Source of the DNA: Bacteroidales bacterium
GTDB taxonomy: Bacteria; Bacteroidota; Bacteroidia; Bacteroidales; UBA7960
Direction of reading: 5' to 3'
Assembly (NCBI GenBank): GCA_019429365.1
Contig: JAHYJD010000009.1
Span: forward strand, 1 to 64,000
Length of the DNA stretch: 64,000 nt
In this document: in pieces, positions 6,611 through 64,000 of the stretch
Layout: each line of letters opens with the position of its first letter
Numbering within the stretch: position 1 is the first letter of the stretch
Program-made: the position numbers and the translations under genes
Notes under the pieces: generated by a model
Told to the model about the DNA's origin: nothing
What the model saw: only the letters and a program-made list of their open reading frames with translations
The model's database searches: none

Positions 6611-6638
6611 CAAAACAAAATCAAAAAAGAACCCTGCT

Positions 6639-7631
6639 GTGCAAGTAAAAAAAATTGGCGTATTGGGAGCCGGCCATTTGGGCAAAATACACATTAAATG
6701 CATTCTTGAATCAGATCGTTTTGACCTGCTTGGTTTTTACGACCCCAACCCGGCTATTTGCGCCGAAGTTGAAGAGAAGTTCGGCATCAAACGCTTCAAC
6801 TCGGCCGATGAGCTGATTGAGGCATGCCAGATGGTCGACATTGTAACCCCCACCGTTTCGCATTTTGAAAATGCTGCCAGGGCACTAAAACGTTCGCGCC
6901 ATGTGTTTATTGAAAAGCCCCTTACCACCACCCTTTCAGAGGCCCGCCAGCTTATTGAACTGGCAAGGGAAGCCAATGTTAAGGTGCAGGTTGGTCATGT
7001 GGAGCGTTTCAACCCTGCCTTTATTGCAGCCAATCCTTTTCTCGAAAATCCAATGTTTATAGAAACGCACCGCCTGGCGCAATTCAATCCCAGGGGTACC
7101 GATGTACCTGTTATTCTCGATCTGATGATACACGACATCGACATTGTATTGCACGTGGTGCGTTCGCCCATTAAAAAGATTTCAGCCAGTGGGGTATCGG
7201 TGGTATCAGAAACGCCCGACATTGCCAATGCCCGAGTGGAGTTTAACAATGGTTGCGTGGCCAACCTCACGGCCAGCCGCATCAGCATGAAAAATATGCG
7301 CAAAACGCGTTTCTTCCAGAAAGATGGTTACATTTCCGTTGATTTCCTTACAAAGGAAACGGAGATTATTCGGATGAAAGCAGCAGAAAACACCAACGAT
7401 CCCTTTGCCATGATTATTGACCTTGGCCACGGCCGGGGGCAAAAGCAGATCTTGGTTGAAAAGCCCGAAATTCAGCCCATTAACGCCATCAAAACCGAAC
7501 TGGAAACTTTTCAGGCTTCGATTGCCGAAAACACCCAACCAGTGGTTACCATTGAAGATGGATACCGCTCGCTTGAGCTGGCATATCAGATTATGGATAA
7601 GATCGACATCAATGCCAGGGTGCTCGGATAA
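6639..7631 (+). CDS. Gfo/Idh/MocA family NAD(P)-dependent oxidoreductase
   Basis: A 330-residue cytoplasmic sugar-type dehydrogenase. The N-terminal Rossmann fold opens with GVLGAGHLGKIH (about residues 8-19), a G-x-G-x-x-G dinucleotide-binding loop. The family motif EKPLTTT, whose Lys takes part in catalysis, is near residue 93. The C-terminal alpha/beta domain begins near residue 120 and contains the HDIDIVLHV segment common in members acting on sugars or nucleotide sugars. GTG is the start, chosen because the fold begins immediately after it. Its closeness to a polyprenyl-phosphate sugar transferase fits a role in modifying a glycan precursor, but the substrate cannot be read from sequence. 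Confidence 0.85.
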   Translation: MQVKKIGVLGAGHLGKIHIKCILESDRFDLLGFYDPNPAICAEVEEKFGIKRFNSADELIEACQMVDIVTPTVSHFENAARALKRSRHVFIEKPLTTTLSEARQLIELAREANVKVQVGHVERFNPAFIAANPFLENPMFIETHRLAQFNPRGTDVPVILDLMIHDIDIVLHVVRSPIKKISASGVSVVSETPDIANARVEFNNGCVANLTASRISMKNMRKTRFFQKDGYISVDFLTKETEIIRMKAAENTNDPFAMIIDLGHGRGQKQILVEKPEIQPINAIKTELETFQASIAENTQPVVTIEDGYRSLELAYQIMDKIDINARVLG

Positions 7632-7831
7632 TTAACCTTCTGCAGTTTATTTAAAAATAACCCAACCGGTTGCTCGCAACGGCAGATTTTCTTTGTTCAT
7701 AACCAAACAATATGTAATACGTCAAAGCGTTATCAAAATATTATCTCCTCCCCGTTCTTTTAATATCATTTAAATCAAACCAACATACCGAGCCGATGGA
7801 ATAATACTATTCGCGAAACCAACAACACAGC

Positions 7832-9256
7832 ATGGATAAAAGACTACAACGAATCCACCTTTTCCGTTACATCGCGTTCGACTTCCTCGCTGCTTCCCTG
7901 GCCTGGTTTTTTTTCATCAGTTTCAGGAAGGCAAATAACAACATCGGCCTTGGCGCCCTGAAAGAACAACTTTTTATTGACGAGAACCTCATAGTGGGAT
8001 TGCTCGTCATCCCTCTTTTCTGGCTTCTCTTTTACTGGGCAAGCGGGGCTTATAAAACCATTTTCCGAACCTCGCGACTGGGCCAGTTCGGACAAACCCT
8101 TTTCACTTCGGTAATTGGCGTGCTGGTCATATTTTTTGTGGTACTGCTCGATCAGGAAGTTAGCACCAGCAGCGAATATTACCGTTCCTTTTTATTTTTG
8201 CTTGTTTTTCATTTCTTTTTTACAGTCACCTTCAGGCTGGTGCTTACCACTATTCTTATCAAAAAAATTCACAATCGGGTTATTGGGTTTCGCACCATCA
8301 TTATCGGAAGCCAAAAAAAAGCCCTCGATATTTTTAATGAGCTGGAATTGCAGAAGAAATCATCGGGCAACCACCTGATTGGCTACGTCAACGTTAACAT
8401 TTACGATAAGTACCTTATTGAAGGCCATTTGCCTTACCTGGGCTGGTTTAAGGACCTTAAAGACATTATTGAAGAATACCAGATTGAAGAGGCCATCCTG
8501 GCTATTGAGCCGCGCGAGCACAAAAACATCAGCCAGATACTCACGGAGTTGTACCAGTCGGATGTGGTGGTGAAAGTGATTCCGGAATTGCATGATATTT
8601 TGTTGGGAGCGGTAAAAATGACATCCATTTTCGGGGCTCCTCTTATTCAGATACAACCAGGTCTGATGCCTGCCTGGCAGCAATCGATCAAGCGCCTTAT
8701 TGATCTGGTGATTTCGCTGCTTGGACTGGTTTTTCTTTCACCGGTTTTTCTGATTACGGCCATTATTGTGAAGGCAACATCCAAAGGACCGGTTTTTTAT
8801 GCCCATGAGCGTATTGGATTGCACGGCAAGCCCTTTATGATGCATAAGTTCCGCTCGATGTATGTCGATGCCGAAAAAGACGGGCCGCAACTTTCGTGCA
8901 AGGACGATCCCCGCATAACCCCCTTCGGACGTTTTATGCGCAAGGTGAGGTTGGATGAAATTCCACAGTTTTACAATGTGCTCATTGGAAACATGTCGCT
9001 GGTGGGCCCCCGACCCGAGCGTCAGTTCTATATCGAACGCATTGCAAAAAAAGCGCCCCACTATCGGCTTCTGCAAAAGATAAAACCAGGGATTACAAGC
9101 TGGGGACAAGTAAAATACGGTTATGCCGAAAATGTGGACCAGATGATTGAACGATTACGCTACGACCTGCTTTACCTGGAAAACATGTCATTGGCCGTCG
9201 ATTTTAAAATCCTGATTTACACAGTACTGATTATTTTGCAAGGAAGGGGAAAGTAA
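7832..9256 (+). CDS. Polyprenyl-phosphate sugar-1-phosphate transferase (initiating glycosyltransferase)
   Basis: A 474-residue membrane enzyme of the WbaP/WcaJ type, which transfers a sugar-1-phosphate to undecaprenyl phosphate and so starts exopolysaccharide or O-unit assembly. About four N-terminal helices (residues 10-140) precede a CoA-binding-like cytoplasmic domain. The C-terminal bacterial sugar transferase domain starts near residue 288 with a re-entrant hydrophobic helix and contains KFRSMYVDAE, RKVRLDEIPQFYNVL and GNMSLVGPRPE, the conserved catalytic segments. Its sugar specificity is not evident. It lies about 200 bases after the oxidoreductase and is convergent with the DUF4294 gene, 5 bases apart. 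Confidence 0.92.
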   Translation: MDKRLQRIHLFRYIAFDFLAASLAWFFFISFRKANNNIGLGALKEQLFIDENLIVGLLVIPLFWLLFYWASGAYKTIFRTSRLGQFGQTLFTSVIGVLVIFFVVLLDQEVSTSSEYYRSFLFLLVFHFFFTVTFRLVLTTILIKKIHNRVIGFRTIIIGSQKKALDIFNELELQKKSSGNHLIGYVNVNIYDKYLIEGHLPYLGWFKDLKDIIEEYQIEEAILAIEPREHKNISQILTELYQSDVVVKVIPELHDILLGAVKMTSIFGAPLIQIQPGLMPAWQQSIKRLIDLVISLLGLVFLSPVFLITAIIVKATSKGPVFYAHERIGLHGKPFMMHKFRSMYVDAEKDGPQLSCKDDPRITPFGRFMRKVRLDEIPQFYNVLIGNMSLVGPRPERQFYIERIAKKAPHYRLLQKIKPGITSWGQVKYGYAENVDQMIERLRYDLLYLENMSLAVDFKILIYTVLIILQGRGK

Positions 9257-9261
9257 GTCCA

Positions 9262-9876
9262 TCAAAGCACCCCGGCTTCAATCATTTGAACAATTTCTTC
9301 GATCAGGCGGTCTTCCCCTTCGGGATCGTATTCGGTTTTGAGATTGTAGCCAAAAATGCGGCCCAGCCCTTGCCAGAATACCGCCGACACCATGCCCCTG
9401 AATTCCCTCACTACATCGTAAGAGGTATGTTTAGTCTGTCTGTCGACCAGCTTGATCAGGATCAATCCCTGGGAGAAGGTTAGCCTTTTGAGGTCATCTT
9501 CAAATTGGGCGCGCAGTTCGTTTTCAGCCTGCCTCATGGCCCGCTTGCGTTGGGCTTCGGTAGGCAAAGTCATTAGAATTTCATTGTATTCGTCGAATTT
9601 AATACCAGCCAATCGGGCATATGGGTATACCCGCTTAACATTCTGCACCAGGCGGCGGTAGCGATTTTCGTCGGCACGGTTTTTAAAAATGCGTGGGGCA
9701 AAAAAGGCCACCGGCTTCAGGTCTATTACCGGGATGGTATCGCCATCGATAATGCGGGCCTTAACCACCTGGCCTTGTCTGGGCATTTCGGGCACCAGCA
9801 CATGCTGGGATTGTCCGTAGCTAAGAGCAGGCAGTAACAAGAAAAAAAACAACAGATATTGATTAAATTTCATCAT
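9262..9876 (-). CDS. DUF4294 family secreted protein
   Basis: About 204 residues, beginning with a signal peptide (MMKFNQY, hydrophobic run, then SYGQ). The mature part contains a DGDTIPVIDL segment, then a basic helical region (ENRYRRLVQNVKRVYPYARLA) and a helical C-terminus. I recognise this as DUF4294, a family found mainly in Bacteroidota and of unknown function, probably periplasmic. The ATG at 9876 was preferred over 9909 because it places the hydrophobic run directly after the first basic residue. It sits downstream of clpX in the same direction but behind an apparent terminator, so it is likely expressed separately. Confidence 0.75.
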   Translation of the reverse strand: MMKFNQYLLFFFLLLPALSYGQSQHVLVPEMPRQGQVVKARIIDGDTIPVIDLKPVAFFAPRIFKNRADENRYRRLVQNVKRVYPYARLAGIKFDEYNEILMTLPTEAQRKRAMRQAENELRAQFEDDLKRLTFSQGLILIKLVDRQTKHTSYDVVREFRGMVSAVFWQGLGRIFGYNLKTEYDPEGEDRLIEEIVQMIEAGVL

Positions 9877-9912
9877 GGTTGTGCCAACGCAAATTTCGAC
9901 AAGAAACATGCC

Positions 9913-9945
9913 AAAAAAAAAGCGCTTGTCCAGTAAACAAACGCT
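9913..9945 (-). terminator. Intrinsic terminator of the tig-clpP-clpX operon
   Basis: On the minus strand the sequence forms an AGCG-TTTGT / ACAAG-CGCT stem with a short loop, followed by nine T residues. It lies about 50 bases after the clpX stop. Confidence 0.75.
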
Positions 9946-9992
9946 AAAAGTTAGTGAAAATTTTGCTCAAATGCAAGCCTGAAAACCACTCG

Positions 9993-11234
9993 CTATGCCA
10001 CTTTAAGCCTGCTCATTTTGTTTTTGCTGAGCTTTTTCGTGGCATATTCAAGGGTAATCCTGAATTCTTTTTCTGGCTTGGCTGAGGAAGGAATTTCAAA
10101 CATGGCATCAAGCATGATCACTTCGCAGATAGAGCGCAGGCCGCGGGCGCCAAGTTTGAATTCTATGGCTTTGTCTACCACGAAATCGAGTACATCGTCT
10201 TCAATTCTTAGTTGAATATTGTCCAGTTCAAAAAGCCTGACATATTGCTTTATAAGGGAGTTCCTGGGTTCGGTAAGGATGGCCCTGAGCACTTCACGGT
10301 CGAGCGGGTTGAGGTAGGTAAGCACTGGCAGGCGCCCTACAAGTTCCGGAATCAGTCCAAAACTTTTCAGGTCCTGCGGGGCGATATACTGAAGCATATT
10401 GTCACGGTCGATTTGCTCCGATTTGTTTACCCCATAGCCAATAGCGTTGGCCTGTATGCGGGAGGCGATTTTCTTTTCGATGCCATCGAAGGCACCACCA
10501 CAAACAAAAAGTATGTTCTGGGTATTTACCTGGATCATTTTCTGCTCGGGGTGCTTGCGCCCGCCCTGCGGCGGAACATTTACCACGGATCCCTCCAGGA
10601 TTTTCAGTAAGGCCTGCTGCACCCCTTCGCCCGAAACATCGCGGGTAATGGAGGGGTTATCGCTTTTGCGTGCAATTTTGTCAACCTCGTCAATAAAAAC
10701 AATACCCCTTTCGGCGGAGGCCACATCGTAATCGGCCACCTGAAGCAAGCGTGCCAGAATACTTTCCACATCTTCGCCAACATAACCGGCCTCGGTAAGC
10801 ACTGTGGCATCGGCAATACAAAATGGAACCTGCAGCAGACGGGCAATGGTGCGGGCCAGCAAAGTTTTGCCGGTTCCCGTTTCGCCAACCATGATGATGT
10901 TAGACTTTTCGATCTCCACATCATCGGCCTTGTCTTTCTTCACGCTGTTTTGGCCAATTCGCTTGTAATGGTTGTAAACAGCCACTGAGAGGACTTTCTT
11001 GGCATCGTCCTGGCCAATGACATACTGGTCGAGATGTTTCTTGATCTCTGCAGGTTTAAGCAACTTAAATGAAGGGATATTGGCCTTTCCCTTAAGCGAT
11101 TTCTCTTCGGCTACAATCAGGCCCGCCTGCTCCACGCAGCGCTCGCAGATGTGAGCGCCCACGCCAGAGATCAGCATTTCGGCCTGTGAAGCATCACGCC
11201 CGCAGAATGAGCATTTTTTGTTTTCTTTTGACAT
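9993..11234 (-). CDS. clpX: ClpX, ATPase and unfoldase subunit of the ClpXP protease
   Basis: A 413-residue AAA+ unfoldase that selects tagged substrates and feeds them to ClpP. The N-terminal zinc-binding domain has Cys8, Cys11, Cys30 and Cys33. Walker A is GETGTGKT (117-124) and Walker [10 protein letters not shown] (178-186). The pore loop GYVGEDVE and the C-terminal small domain [10 protein letters not shown] are present. Length is standard. It is the last gene of tig-clpP-clpX, 26 bases after clpP, and a good terminator follows. Confidence 0.97.
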
Positions 11235-57794: not shown

Positions 57795-60700
57795 ATGCGA
57801 AAACTTGCCAGCAGCTGGCTGTTGTTGCTCGCGTTTTTCCTACCCGCTGTAACACAAGACCTTCCCACCGCTGCCCGCCACAGCCACTACCAGTACATTT
57901 ACCAGATCACCAATGAGGAAGCCCTGGACTTTATAAAAAAAGGAAGGATCACTCCGGGTGATGTTTCCTTTTTTCACACAAAGGTCGATTCGGTTCCATT
58001 CTTTAAAACCTTGCCTGAAATTACCCAAGCCGGACATTATCTTGTGGTAACCATCCTGGAAAACAATGTCGGGGTGGCCTTAAAAACGGTTAACAACACC
58101 AATATTCACTTACTGAACAACCAAAAGGACCTGAGTTTTGTAATTACCGATCTTAGCGGTAAGCCTTTGAATAATCTGTCTGTCCGGGCAGGAAGCCGCG
58201 CGGTACATTTTGATGAAACCTCAGGCACTTACCGTGAAAAGAAAAGCAACGCCAGCGGCTGGTTAACTTATGAATACCAGGGACACCTTCATATTTTAGA
58301 CCTTAGGAAAAGCCATGACCGCGGTTTTTTCAAAAAGCTGGGAGCATTTGTTTCCTCCAAAACACCGCTGGCTTTGGGGTCAGACTTTATTGAACTGGCG
58401 GAATTTGCCATCAGCATCCCGATTGATTTATACAAGTTTATCGATTATTCTTATCCTGCCGATGCTTTTTATGAGCTTGGAAATAAATATGCCGCCTTTT
58501 TTGGCTTTGGCCAATACAACCGAAGGAATGAATACACCGGCTATATGGTGCTGAACAAGCCCCGTTACCGCCCGGGCGAAACCATAAAATACAAGGCCTT
58601 TATCACCGATCAGATCGGCAGGCCAGTGAGGGGCTATGTCAACCTTTCTCTGTGGATTCCCCAAAAAGGCAAAACCTTCCTGCAACAAATTGAAAGCTAT
58701 GCTCCGGGCGGGTTTGAAGGCTCCTTTGTACTTCACGACAGCCTCGATCTGAAACTGGATACCCGATACAGGATATCGCTGGAAAGGCCAAATGGCGGCG
58801 AACTTTTTTACGGGTTTTTCCAGTATGCCGATTATGAGTTGGGCAATATTCAGCTTTCGGTGGAAAAACCTCAATCTTATCACTTCCGCGGACAAAACCT
58901 TGAGCTACAGATAGGAGGAAAGGATGAGAATGATTTGCCTTTGTATGATGCGCGGCTCGAAATCACCATTTATCCCAGGAAAGTCGATAAATTCTTCAGC
59001 GATCAAACTTTTGTTCCGGATACCTTACTGAAAAAAGATATTGCTCTCGATGCCGGCGCTCCTACCCCTTTCGTTATTCCCGACTCCCTGTTCACGGAGA
59101 TAAACCTTGACTATGAAGTATTGGTCAGGCTGATCAGCCACGACAACCAGAAAAGAGAAAACAGGCAACGCCTTCAGTTTTTTCACAAGAAAGAGGAGTT
59201 GGAGTACCGCCTGCAGGATTCACTGATCACATTTCACTTTCGTGAAAACGGCATTTCAAAGGAGGTTAAAGCCACCTTGCAATACCAGGATAAAAACGGC
59301 CTGTCGGGAACTAGGAAGGTTGTTGATCTGCCATATTCTGAAAAAATCAACCCGGGCATATTCCAATACAGGATTACGGTGAATGAAATTACCGAAACCC
59401 TTCGGCCCGGGCCTTGGGAGGCCGGTATTTCCATCATGGAAGAGCGAAACCATGAAGAGGTAAGGTTCAGCGTTAACAACCCCCGAAACATACCATTTGC
59501 CTGGTTTCTCTTCAAAAACGACATGGAGGTGGCCAACGGCGAAGGCACAACCTTTTTCATGAAAGAGCCAGCAAAAACGGATGAAGGTTTTCACCTAACC
59601 GTCCATTATTTGTGGGCGGGTGAAATGAAAAGATCCCACAGCGAGTCTTTTTTTCAGCCCGGGCAACTGAAACTATCCGTTCAGCAACCTGAAAGAGTCT
59701 TTCCGGGGCAAACCGTCTCCATTGAACTTGGAGTTACCGACGCCTGGGGGAATCCCGCTGCGAATACTGACCTTACTGCCTTTTCCTGGACAAGGAAATT
59801 CAATGAAATGCCCCCTGCCGTTCCTTCACCAAATAACCGCTGGCGGCCTTTAAGCCTCTACAACAGTTTTTTTCACCATCTTCCAACAAAAATCACCACC
59901 TTATTTACAGCAAAGAAAAAGGAGTTCTGGTTCTCTGAAGCTGGGCTGGACACCATGCCCTATTTTCAATTCCGCTTCCCGGGAAAAGATCTTTTTACCA
60001 CTACCGTTGAAACCTTTACCGGAGAAACGCAGTTTGCGCCATTTGTTTTCAAAAACGGAGTGGAAATACCCATTCATATCGTTTATGTAAATCATAAACC
60101 AGTATTTACCTCGCTTGCCAACAATGCCCGCCCGTGGTCGTTCAGGGCTGAACCGGGCTATAACCATATCAGGATCCGAACCAGAAACAACGAAATAGTC
60201 ATTGACAGCCTTTTCCTGGAACCAGGCAAAAAAACCATGTTGAGCCTTGACCTCGCCAAAAATACAAGCCTCGGTGTGCAAAGGGCACAGGCAAGAATCA
60301 GTCGTAAGGAGAAGTCGCATTTGTACCCGCAACTTTTTTCTTTTCAATTGCCAGGCAATGAAACCACCTGGCTGGATCATGATACCGGCATTGTTTTTTT
60401 AAACCAGGGCAACCGAAACCAGTTCTCATACAGGCATTGGAATACCACTGTTGCCGGCCCCCTGTTTATTGACACGGCAAGGGTGTCCGGTGTCGAAAGC
60501 TCCTCCTTCAGTATTCCCCTCGATCACCGGTTTAAATATTTCATTGGCCCCGACGGGCTAAAGGAGATTCAGGCATTTGAAACGGATGCTTTCCCAAGAT
60601 TCTGGGCACGGGTGGGCGGTAACCTGAGAAATTTGAACGATGAGTTTCTTACCATGAAACTGCTGGAAGAGAATCTGAAAATAAGAGAAGAACAAGCAAA

Positions 60701-63620
60701 AACACCCACGTTTCAGTATCGTTTCCCGGCAAAAACAACGAAAGATAATGGCAAACTGCTGGTGGAAAGAACCTTCGACGAGGAGGTCGTAAAAAAGTTT
60801 GGCCAGCCAATTCATGTTGTACTTTGGCCAGAAAAAGGCAACGAACACATAATTTACCCGGGACCACAGTTTTTGTTTCATAATGTAGTGGAAGGCTTTT
60901 ACACCCTGGTTTACATTTTCAAAGAAAATCATTTCATTAAAACGGGACCCTTCTTTGTTAAAGGCGGCGGACAAAATTTTGTCAGATACAGTTTTGTGGA
61001 TAATCCGGAAGCGAATGAAGAAATAACCAGGATGATTCAACCAAAACTCAATGCATTGATGACCTTCCCTTTCCAGACCTATACCAGCAGGTTTTCAAAC
61101 GATTTGTTTCAAAGGCCAAAAAGAGCAAGCCTTGGAGATACTATGAGCGAAATCCTGAACTTCCGGCAAGGCACAGGTGCCAGCCATGAACAATCATACG
61201 ATGCAGGAAGAGGAAACCCCATAGCGGGTGTAATGCAGGGGAAGGTATTCGATGCTTCAGATGGGGGCTCCTTGCCGGGAGCTGTGATAACCATCAAAGG
61301 CACCACAACCGGGGTTACCACAGATATTGATGGGAATTTCTCCATCAATGTATCATCAGGGCAAACCCTGGTAGTTTCATTCATTGGCATGAAAACCCAT
61401 GAATTCGAGGCTGTTTTTGAAACCCATCTCGTTTATCTTGCCCCCGAAATCTTCGCTTTAGAAGAAGTCGTGGCAGTGGGCTATGGCTCCCAAACCCGAT
61501 TAAATCTCTCAGGTGCAGCCTCAGGAATAAGGATCAGGGGTACATCAGGCATTTACGGATCCAGGGCGGCTGATACTGAAATTTTGTTTGCAGTGGTTGA
61601 GAGTGAAATGCTACCTCCCCCACCACCCGATCAAATTGACATCACAAGCCCCCTTGAGGCTTTTGTCATGCCCGACTTTGCCGGCTGGGAGCCGGGGGCG
61701 CAATCGGGTAGCATCCGCAGCAATTTTTCTGATTATGCCTACTGGCAGCCACGACTCCGAACCAATGCCGAGGGCAAGGCCAGCTTTGAAGTTACTTTTC
61801 CGGATGATGTCACTTTCTGGGATACATTTATTTACGCAATGAACGAGAAAAGGCAATCGGGCAGGCACATTGGCGGCATACAGTCGTTCCAGGCGCTTAT
61901 GGCACAACTCTCTTTGCCCCGGTTCCTGGTGGAAGGCGACACGGCCTTTGCCCTTGGAAGGATAACTTCGTACCTGCAGGATACCCTGAGCGTACAAACT
62001 AATTTTGAACTGGCCGGGCAGCAAATCAAAACAGTTAACCACCAGGTATTCCAGACCGCCATCGATACCCTTTTACTTACCACCACCACACTCGACTCTC
62101 TGCAAGTGAAATATCACCTCGAATACATTGGGTTCTTAGATGGCGAAGAGCGCCAAATACCAGTTATGCCCAAAGGCCTTGAGAAAACGCTTGGTCAATT
62201 CTGGAGCCTGAAGGCCGACAGCACTTTCAGCGTAAGCTTTGACCAAAATCTTGGCGAAGTAAGCCTGTATGCCAAAACCAACGCGCTGGAGCTTTTCCTT
62301 GACGACATTGAACGGCTCATTCGCTTCCCCTACAATTGCAATGAACAAGAAGCCTCGCGCCTGATTGCCCTTATAGCAAAAAAAGAAATTTATGCCCTTA
62401 CGGGAAAACGTTTCTGGCAGGAAGGGCGAATCAGGGCTACCATAAGCGTCCTACTAAAAAACCAAAATTCGGAAGGCCTCTGGGGCTGGTGGGGCAATTC
62501 GCCACATTCGAGCATTTGGATGAGCGAGCATGTGCTCAAGGCCCTGCAAATGGCAACAGAAAAAGGGTATGAAGTAAATTATTCACGACCCATTACAAGT
62601 GGGATGCTGGCCTTTTACGGCGAAAAAAATCTCCCCTTAAGGGAAAAGGCAAGCCTTGTAAGGATTATGCTGATGCACGGCTACGAAGCCGAATACGACA
62701 AAATAATCAGGCAAATGGCTGCGCAGGACGCCAGAAATGAGCTTTTCTATGAACTGGCCGAAATGAAACAGCTCGCAGGCCTGCAGCAACCAGCCCGTGC
62801 AGTGCTCGACAGCGCCAAACACACATTTTTCGGCAATATGTATTTCCCCGGAAGGGGCAATCCAATGTCGTTCTGGGGTACAAACACCACCAATACGCTT
62901 GCCGCTTACCGAATTTTCAACCGCACCGGCGAAAGCAATCAGCAATACCTGGAACCCATTTTCAGCTATTTGCTCGAGGTAAGGGATGTGTCATTCCCGG
63001 CAAGCACTTACTTCACTTCAAACATGATTTACTCCGTAATGCCAACTTTGCTCGAAATGGCAGCAACCGGCGACAGGGCAGCACGAATTGAACTTAGCGG
63101 TCCCGTTGATTCTCTGGCCGTTGAATTTCCGCTGGAGCTGCGGTTTTCGCCTGAGAAAATGCTGCAGGTAAGAAAAACCGGTGCAAGCCCGGTTTATCTC
63201 ACCACCTATCAGCGCTACTGGGAAGCCAACCCAACAGCTGAGAGCGGTGACATAAAAGTTCATACTTGGTTTCAAGGGGTGAGTGAGCCCAACAAGCTGG
63301 AGGCTGCGAAAGAAATAACGCTGAAGGTTTCAGTAACCCTTGAAAAGCCTGCCGAGTACCTTATGTTGGAAGTGCCCATACCGGCCGGTTGCAGCTATGC
63401 TGATCATCAACCAAGGGGCACAGGCGAAGTGCACCGCGAACAGTGGCGCCACCAAACCACCTTATTCTTCAACAGATTGGCCCCCGGCACCTATACCTAC
63501 GAGATCAAACTATTGCCAAGGTTTTCAGGCAGCTACACCCTGAATCCCGCGAAAGCGGAGCTGATGTATTTCCCGGTGTTTAATGCCAACAACGAATTGC
63601 GAAAAGTGGTGATAGAATAG
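57795..63620 (+). CDS. Alpha-2-macroglobulin-like protein with embedded SusC-type regulatory domain
   Basis: A 1941-residue exported protein. A signal peptide (MRKLASSWLLLLAFFLPAVTQ) without lipobox is followed by macroglobulin domains; MG2 shows LNKPRYRPGETIKYKAF near residue 253. Residues 1147-1215 are a carboxypeptidase-regulatory-like beta-sandwich (GKVFDASDGGSLPGAVITIK, TDIDGNFSINV). They are followed by EEVVAVGYGSQ (1223-1233) and IRIRGTSGI (from 1245), the hallmarks of SusC-type TonB receptors, but no barrel. A PPPPP linker (1274-1278) leads to the A2M domain (SDYAYWQPRLRTNAEGKASF, near 1310). The thioester-type motif CNEQ occupies 1515-1518. It may trap proteases or act in envelope defence; no PBP1C neighbour is seen. 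Confidence 0.85.
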   Translation: MRKLASSWLLLLAFFLPAVTQDLPTAARHSHYQYIYQITNEEALDFIKKGRITPGDVSFFHTKVDSVPFFKTLPEITQAGHYLVVTILENNVGVALKTVNNTNIHLLNNQKDLSFVITDLSGKPLNNLSVRAGSRAVHFDETSGTYREKKSNASGWLTYEYQGHLHILDLRKSHDRGFFKKLGAFVSSKTPLALGSDFIELAEFAISIPIDLYKFIDYSYPADAFYELGNKYAAFFGFGQYNRRNEYTGYMVLNKPRYRPGETIKYKAFITDQIGRPVRGYVNLSLWIPQKGKTFLQQIESYAPGGFEGSFVLHDSLDLKLDTRYRISLERPNGGELFYGFFQYADYELGNIQLSVEKPQSYHFRGQNLELQIGGKDENDLPLYDARLEITIYPRKVDKFFSDQTFVPDTLLKKDIALDAGAPTPFVIPDSLFTEINLDYEVLVRLISHDNQKRENRQRLQFFHKKEELEYRLQDSLITFHFRENGISKEVKATLQYQDKNGLSGTRKVVDLPYSEKINPGIFQYRITVNEITETLRPGPWEAGISIMEERNHEEVRFSVNNPRNIPFAWFLFKNDMEVANGEGTTFFMKEPAKTDEGFHLTVHYLWAGEMKRSHSESFFQPGQLKLSVQQPERVFPGQTVSIELGVTDAWGNPAANTDLTAFSWTRKFNEMPPAVPSPNNRWRPLSLYNSFFHHLPTKITTLFTAKKKEFWFSEAGLDTMPYFQFRFPGKDLFTTTVETFTGETQFAPFVFKNGVEIPIHIVYVNHKPVFTSLANNARPWSFRAEPGYNHIRIRTRNNEIVIDSLFLEPGKKTMLSLDLAKNTSLGVQRAQARISRKEKSHLYPQLFSFQLPGNETTWLDHDTGIVFLNQGNRNQFSYRHWNTTVAGPLFIDTARVSGVESSSFSIPLDHRFKYFIGPDGLKEIQAFETDAFPRFWARVGGNLRNLNDEFLTMKLLEENLKIREEQAKTPTFQYRFPAKTTKDNGKLLVERTFDEEVVKKFGQPIHVVLWPEKGNEHIIYPGPQFLFHNVVEGFYTLVYIFKENHFIKTGPFFVKGGGQNFVRYSFVDNPEANEEITRMIQPKLNALMTFPFQTYTSRFSNDLFQRPKRASLGDTMSEILNFRQGTGASHEQSYDAGRGNPIAGVMQGKVFDASDGGSLPGAVITIKGTTTGVTTDIDGNFSINVSSGQTLVVSFIGMKTHEFEAVFETHLVYLAPEIFALEEVVAVGYGSQTRLNLSGAASGIRIRGTSGIYGSRAADTEILFAVVESEMLPPPPPDQIDITSPLEAFVMPDFAGWEPGAQSGSIRSNFSDYAYWQPRLRTNAEGKASFEVTFPDDVTFWDTFIYAMNEKRQSGRHIGGIQSFQALMAQLSLPRFLVEGDTAFALGRITSYLQDTLSVQTNFELAGQQIKTVNHQVFQTAIDTLLLTTTTLDSLQVKYHLEYIGFLDGEERQIPVMPKGLEKTLGQFWSLKADSTFSVSFDQNLGEVSLYAKTNALELFLDDIERLIRFPYNCNEQEASRLIALIAKKEIYALTGKRFWQEGRIRATISVLLKNQNSEGLWGWWGNSPHSSIWMSEHVLKALQMATEKGYEVNYSRPITSGMLAFYGEKNLPLREKASLVRIMLMHGYEAEYDKIIRQMAAQDARNELFYELAEMKQLAGLQQPARAVLDSAKHTFFGNMYFPGRGNPMSFWGTNTTNTLAAYRIFNRTGESNQQYLEPIFSYLLEVRDVSFPASTYFTSNMIYSVMPTLLEMAATGDRAARIELSGPVDSLAVEFPLELRFSPEKMLQVRKTGASPVYLTTYQRYWEANPTAESGDIKVHTWFQGVSEPNKLEAAKEITLKVSVTLEKPAEYLMLEVPIPAGCSYADHQPRGTGEVHREQWRHQTTLFFNRLAPGTYTYEIKLLPRFSGSYTLNPAKAELMYFPVFNANNELRKVVIE

Positions 63621-63643: not shown

Positions 63644-63651
63644 TATCTTTG
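63644..63651 (+). promoter_or_regulatory. -7 box of the response regulator gene
   Basis: TATCTTTG followed by CGCA, matching TAnnTTTG, 22 bases before the ATG at 63673. Confidence 0.6.
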
Positions 63652-63672
63652 CGCAATGAAAAATTGATTGCC

Positions 63673-64000
63673 ATGGCCAGAATTCTTGTTATTGATGACG
63701 AACGCAGCATACGCAATACCCTTAAGGAAATATTGGAATACGAAAAGTTTGAGGTTGATGTGGCCGAAGACGGTTTTGAAGGGCTTGAAAAGATAGAAAG
63801 CAGCCACTTCGACGTGGTGCTGTGCGACATCAAAATGCCCAAAATGGACGGCATTGAAGTGCTGGGCAAGATACAGGAAAAAGACCCGGATGCCACGGTG
63901 GTGATGATCTCAGGCCATGGCTCTATCGACACGGCCGTTGAGGCCATTAAAAAGGGGGCGTTCGATTTTATCTCCAAACCACTCGACCTGAACCGCCTGC
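63673..64000 (+). CDS. Response regulator, NtrC-type (partial, runs off the window)
   Basis: The first 109 residues of a two-component regulator. The receiver domain is complete in its conserved residues: acidic pair in VIDDERS, phospho-acceptor Asp in VVLCDIKMPKMDG, Thr/Ser position in MISGHGS, and Lys in FISKPLD. The sequence SGHGSIDTAVEAIKKGAFDF is typical of NtrC-family regulators, which continue with a sigma54-activating AAA+ domain. The rest lies beyond the right edge, so that domain is inferred. The sensor is not in view. Confidence 0.85.
   Translation, partial: MARILVIDDERSIRNTLKEILEYEKFEVDVAEDGFEGLEKIESSHFDVVLCDIKMPKMDGIEVLGKIQEKDPDATVVMISGHGSIDTAVEAIKKGAFDFISKPLDLNRL

Follow-up and report, generated by a model that had tools for sequence, protein, structure and literature searches.

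The window analysed here, a stretch of 64,000 nucleotides at the start of the Bacteroidales contig JAHYJD010000009.1, contains near its end a gene for a protein of the alpha-2-macroglobulin (A2M) family. As judged from sequence, this protein is a member of the thioester-motif type that carries the N-terminal module of a SusC/RagA transporter, consisting of an N-terminal extension (NTE), a Ton box and the remains of a TonB plug, in place of its bait region. SusC/RagA transporters are nutrient receptors on which the inner-membrane motor TonB normally pulls. The parts are known and their combination is a variant. The features of the gene, all on the + strand, are as follows.

57795..63620, +, A2M-family gene of 1941 amino acids, a single uninterrupted frame from the ATG at 57795 to a stop ending at 63620
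57795..57857, +, N-terminal signal sequence without a lipobox, probably of the signal peptidase I type (sequence)
58539..58742, +, MG2 domain, residues 249-316 (Pfam PF01835)
61062..61223, +, predicted disordered linker preceding the insert, residues 1090-1143 (AlphaFold2, predicted local distance difference test (pLDDT) about 33-41)
61227..61451, +, SusC-type NTE, carboxypeptidase D regulatory-like, residues 1145-1219 (PF13715, TIGR04056, AlphaFold2 fold and structure matches)
61458..61487, +, Ton box LEEVVAVGYG, residues 1222-1231 (alignment to SusC; Ton box named in PMC7782687; disordered in the model)
61527..61574, +, TonB plug remnants IRIRG (1245-1249) to IYGSRAAD (1253-1260), core deleted (comparison with full-plug orthologs)
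61614..61628, +, proline run PPPPP, residues 1274-1278, within the disordered C-side linker (sequence, AlphaFold2)
61710..61745, +, SIRSNFSDYAYW, the first residues past the insert, equivalent to the post-bait or post-anaphylatoxin residues (profile alignment to frog A2M 7s62)
61737..62000, +, A2M domain PF00207, residues 1315-1402 (Pfam)
62337..62348, +, CNEQ thioester motif, residues 1515-1518 (sequence)
63288..63575, +, bMG10 domain PF17973, residues 1832-1927 (Pfam, E 3e-11)

The SusC-type regulatory domain that the initial annotation had placed before the A2M domain was clearly recovered. The CarbopepD_reg_2 family (PF13715) matched residues 1148-1226 far beyond chance (E 1e-16), and the NCBIfam SusC/RagA model TIGR04056 covered residues 1147-1246 (E 1e-26), only with profile positions 3-102 of 981. 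The NTE also matched the SusC/RagA structures 8aa4, 6sli and 5t3r, in which the matching stretch is an NTE followed by a Ton box. For the SusC protein Bt1763, the Ton box has been placed at 82-DEVVVTG-88 and the NTE belongs to PF13715; mutating either of them impairs growth on levan, and deletion of the NTE abolished it (PMC7782687). Because LEEVVAVGYG aligns to SusC, where the Bt1763 stretch bears that name, we assign it by alignment as a Ton box and as more than a SusC-like motif. The initial annotation had listed EEVVAVGYGSQ as similar to SusC/RagA receptors, which is right as to type, but it missed that EEVVAVGYG is the Ton box.

The "TonB-plug-like segment" of the same annotation holds in part. 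The Plug family (PF07715) had no match in the protein even at E 10, and IRIRG and YGSRA by themselves are motif-level similarities, backed by orthologs; they are recognisable as truncated plug remnants because relatives carry a whole plug domain there. There is no 22-strand β-barrel in the protein, as the TIGR04056 match ends at position 102 of 981 and the macroglobulin fold follows. Since the tests for plug and barrel fail, we filed the protein under the A2M family and not under TonB-dependent transporters.

The location of the insert was examined with a profile of the part that follows it. In frog A2M (7s62, from residue 715) the counterpart of SIRSNFSDYAYWQP is VETLRKNFSETFLWR, and the matches to human A2M (6tav), A2ML1 and C5 began at the same profile positions. 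The residues aligned to SIRSNFSDYAYWQP come after the bait region in A2M and after the anaphylatoxin domain in C5. The alignment to A2M and C5 therefore indicates that the insert fills the bait/anaphylatoxin slot. The module had previously been described as lying close to this site; the location stands, and by the profile alignment it is not merely close but at the bait/anaphylatoxin position, replacing the bait region, and its end coincides exactly with that of the bait region or anaphylatoxin. A Pfam scan of the protein found no anaphylatoxin family, and the bait region family PF07703 (A2M_BRD) had no match even at E 10.

The macroglobulin body was read correctly at the outset, with the right coordinates, and MG2, A2M, bMG10 and CNEQ were all found. 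The A2M domain scored 42.4 bits against a cut-off of 21 (E 6e-11), and the MG2 match fell just below its cut-off (32.1 bits against 32.8, E 1.6e-7). A thioester domain (TED) profile matched residues 1499-1590 below its cut-off (E 0.003), and this region aligns with the TED of YfhM. CxEQ is present without exception in alignments of 24, 32, 64 and 87 rows. A sequence search with the region before the insert gave no real match to solved structures. No cysteine lipobox was found at the N terminus of the protein, so that it lacks the anchor by which ECAM is usually attached to the inner membrane, and from the signal sequence we infer a location in the periplasm. Among relatives, a loose lipobox pattern fits 11 of 104 and a stricter pattern none of the 104.

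When the structure of residues 742-1941 was predicted with AlphaFold2 from 87 aligned sequences (mean pLDDT 80.9), the model matched native ECAM, Salmonella A2M, CD109, C3 and C5 with E 1e-26 to 1e-30, and also A2ML1. Residues 1145-1219 fold as a domain of their own with pLDDT mostly 84-93, so that the region is not the ordinary macroglobulin (MG) domain that had been considered as an alternative. The flanking residues 1090-1143 and 1220-1289 are disordered (pLDDT 27-50), and the second of these stretches includes the Ton box, which is thus predicted to be accessible. The predicted template modelling scores (pTM) of the models were 0.64-0.65, at which the relative arrangement of domains is not reliable.

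Another genome of the genus encodes an ortholog that is 50% identical over residues 7-1941, lies in one frame and bears the same plug truncation (IRIRGASTIFGS). A frameshift, a misassembly or a recent accidental fusion of two genes, of which the initial annotation had also warned, would find some room in a draft genome of 224 contigs. We rejected this explanation and give it practically no weight, because homologs carry the same fusion: it stands in one open frame in the ortholog, it recurs in isolate genomes, and the truncation is shared with the sister protein.

Relatives were gathered from one genome per prokaryote species with an alignment query, which yielded the 80 best relatives; a single-protein query of the same genome contigs gave no matches. 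Queries comprised the body only, as the whole protein swamps the results with SusC genes. Isolates among these 80 belong to Flammeovirga, Mucilaginibacter, Pedobacter, Rufibacter, Chitinophaga, Aequorivita, Ohtaekwangia and Natronoflexus, and the fusion architecture, present in at least 80 relatives of which many are isolates, occurs in several classes of Bacteroidota, a spread that the initial annotation had missed. With a SusC N-terminal profile, 77 of 91 relatives showed an NTE, a Ton box region and a complete plug, 9 were truncated ahead of the plug core, and 5 had no detectable SusC module. By Pfam, CarboxypepD_reg was found in 22 and Plug in 10 of 24 Bacteroidales members. Since 77 of the 91 possess the whole plug, the truncated plug is best read as a derived state, and the window protein as an instance of this recurrent architecture with an eroded plug; the truncation itself had been recognised before, its derived nature had not. 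Two side observations concern the plug in relatives. L083 has, besides the plug-like stretch before the A2M domain, a second one near its N terminus (residues 184-236, PLYIVNG..YGSKGANGVVVITTKSG), and the full-plug relative L142 comes from a contig whose label names the alphaproteobacterium Thalassovita and which is probably a mis-binned Bacteroidota contig.

In the AlphaFold2 model of a full-plug ortholog from Rufibacter roseus, the NTE is the same, the Ton box is again disordered and the plug core has a moderately confident fold (pLDDT about 70-79). This fold, together with the complete plug in most relatives, is what would be expected if the plug part docked in an outer-membrane barrel and tethered the trap to the outer membrane. 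We consider such docking in trans very improbable, given that the plug core is lost in the window protein and others and that no barrel gene is conserved next to the gene.

Based on these observations, we tentatively suggest, with a confidence that comes close to but does not reach an even chance, that the protein is a soluble periplasmic protease trap of the thioester type in which the bait is replaced by a SusC/RagA N-terminal module able to dock TonB. Cleavage by periplasmic proteases would fall in the disordered stretches surrounding the NTE and the Ton box, setting free the thioester domain and tying the protease to the trap by a covalent bond. The NTE and the Ton box would serve as a binding site for TonB, or else mimic the side of SusC receptors that faces the periplasm. 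The trap would then wait where TonB and SusC meet, offering proteases the same segment that they would attack on the receptors. Among the roles first proposed for the insert, which were a bait, a docking module for a TonB-type partner and a domain released after cleavage, the data favour a bait combined with TonB docking, and they bear little on a release.

The conservation of the insert bears directly on this proposal. The Ton box is its best-conserved block (E 92%, V 85%, V 92% and V 89% among 87-88 sequences). Pair identity in the A2M inserts is 65% for the Ton box and 37% for the NTE, as compared with 60% for the Ton box in SusC, so that the Ton box in these inserts is more conserved than the NTE and the plug and no less conserved than in SusC. 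It is also kept in 8 of the 9 relatives that lost the plug yet have a detectable NTE, with L075 as the exception. These results tell against the explanation that the SusC-like segment is purely a bait, a flexible protease-sensitive spacer whose Ton box has no TonB role and is kept by domain ancestry, since a mere bait should conserve its Ton box neither above the NTE and the plug nor in plug-less copies. Several findings do suit such a spacer: the insert is disordered in part and sits at the bait position, the full and non-full plug states require at least 6 changes on a tree of the body (insert excluded), from which much of the module appears dispensable, and neither a Ton box nor a plug is detectable in one clade (L084-L087). 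Taking both sides together, we regard a pure bait as rather unlikely. On the same tree, the window protein and its ortholog group with three other plug-less proteins (support 0.965).

In A2M the stretch after the Ton box varies in length, being 70% filled as compared with 100% in SusC, and the 48 positions there change fastest between some close relatives; in the L090/L095 pair, identity is 10% in this segment against 79% in the post-insert body. Diversification or positive selection is not claimed, because SusC is no more conserved there at matched distance. When all A2M inserts were constrained to one clade, the tree scored above the free tree (p-AU 0.71 in the approximately unbiased test), and a single origin of the inserts is thus compatible with the test. 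The window NTE shares more identity with the SusC of its family (52%) than it does with the inserts of other A2M proteins; with the single-clade tree at p-AU 0.71, we do not claim that resident SusC genes recently donated the insert anew.

We need to consider that several results weigh against the proposal of a TonB-docking trap. The conservation of the Ton box could be inheritance, held by its folding with the NTE or the plug, and at matched distance the segment after it varies no more than its SusC counterpart does (37% against 34%). The Pedobacter copy L163 has a plug and no Ton box, the plug-truncated L075 has a degenerate Ton box (LDAVYCIAYK), and in the Bacteroidales clade L084-L087 neither of the two, Ton box or plug, could be detected at the bait site. 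The subfamily is patchy, which speaks against a general TonB partner: within the order, 21 of 295 genomes have a match at E 1e-53 or better, with the next best near 1e-14, and within the phylum 5 of 198 genomes have one at E 1e-20; these five include the window's own genome and two in which the frame is shorter. Finally, no neighbour gene recurs among the loci of the relatives, and neither a barrel gene nor another partner is linked; the largest neighbour families are present in 7 loci and are housekeeping-like. As no neighbour recurs, no dedicated partner is suggested. As a separate observation, L084-L087 retain at the bait site only a carboxypeptidase-regulatory-like stretch.

The same Ton box, conserved and predicted to be disordered, could also belong to a docking or energised module, on which TonB pulls in order to position or recycle the macroglobulin or to trigger it mechanically, perhaps serving envelope assembly or tethering rather than trapping. 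The full plug in 77 of 91 relatives and the missing lipobox of the window protein fit this alternative, as does the gating of transporters by force on TonB complexes (PMC5413942). The invariant CxEQ, however, argues that thioester trapping still matters, and with no barrel gene or other partner linked we judge such a module improbable. For the trap with a TonB-docking bait, a coupled form can be imagined, in which the bait Ton box binds TonB, the Ton motor, driven by the proton motive force, positions the trap or puts the bait under force, and the SusC-like segment acts as a decoy for proteases that attack SusC; we hold this form to be possible but doubtful.

The architecture can be compared with known systems. 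Bacterial type I A2Ms (E. coli YfhM/ECAM and Salmonella A2M; PDB 4rtd, 4ziq, 5a42, 4u48) share with the window protein MG domains, the A2M domain, a CxEQ thioester domain, bMG10 and the predicted fold, whereas the window protein differs from YfhM/ECAM in having no lipobox, PbpC neighbour or PF07703 match and in replacing the bait with a SusC module. SusC/RagA transporters such as Bt1763 and RagA have an NTE, a Ton box and, as in most relatives, a plug in the same order as the A2M insert (PMC7782687), but the window protein lacks their β-barrel and plug core, and its module is internal to a macroglobulin and not N-terminal. In complement C3, C4 and C5 a folded domain, the anaphylatoxin, is found at the same chain position ahead of the conserved post-bait residues (C5 alignment); in the window protein this domain is a SusC NTE instead. 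Eukaryotic A2M, A2ML1 and CD109 have the same bait position and thioester layout, while the bait of the window protein holds a folded domain and a Ton box. We found no open-access paper that joins a macroglobulin with SusC, a TonB plug or a Ton box in this way, which is no proof of absence. As far as could be seen, the parts are known and the architecture is visible in domain databases, while the combination is apparently undescribed.

That the fusion recurs across many Bacteroidota suggests that TonB and protease trapping are linked in a way not yet described. With a working Ton box, TonB would have a client other than a transporter, and the macroglobulin bait would have a second, binding function. 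An NTE and a Ton box without a barrel would also be a natural construct for asking whether the NTE chooses between TonB paralogs. The bait/anaphylatoxin slot has taken in a whole foreign domain in bacteria, as in complement.

Directly downstream of the A2M gene lies a gene for a sigma-54-activating response regulator (window 63649-64000; 6617-7846 in locus L039), which shows no sign of belonging with it, and pbpC was not found beside the A2M gene, where this regulator gene stands. The same genome encodes a canonical bacterial A2M with a PF07703 bait domain (L038, G000:C132, 2469-8234), directly followed by a gene for a PbpC-type transglycosylase/transpeptidase (8380-10770), so that the window protein differs from it and represents a further macroglobulin of this genome. 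Six TonB C-terminal domains are encoded there as well, and candidates for docking therefore exist. The genome's 33 plug matches fall in frames of 749-1122 amino acids, except for one of 209.
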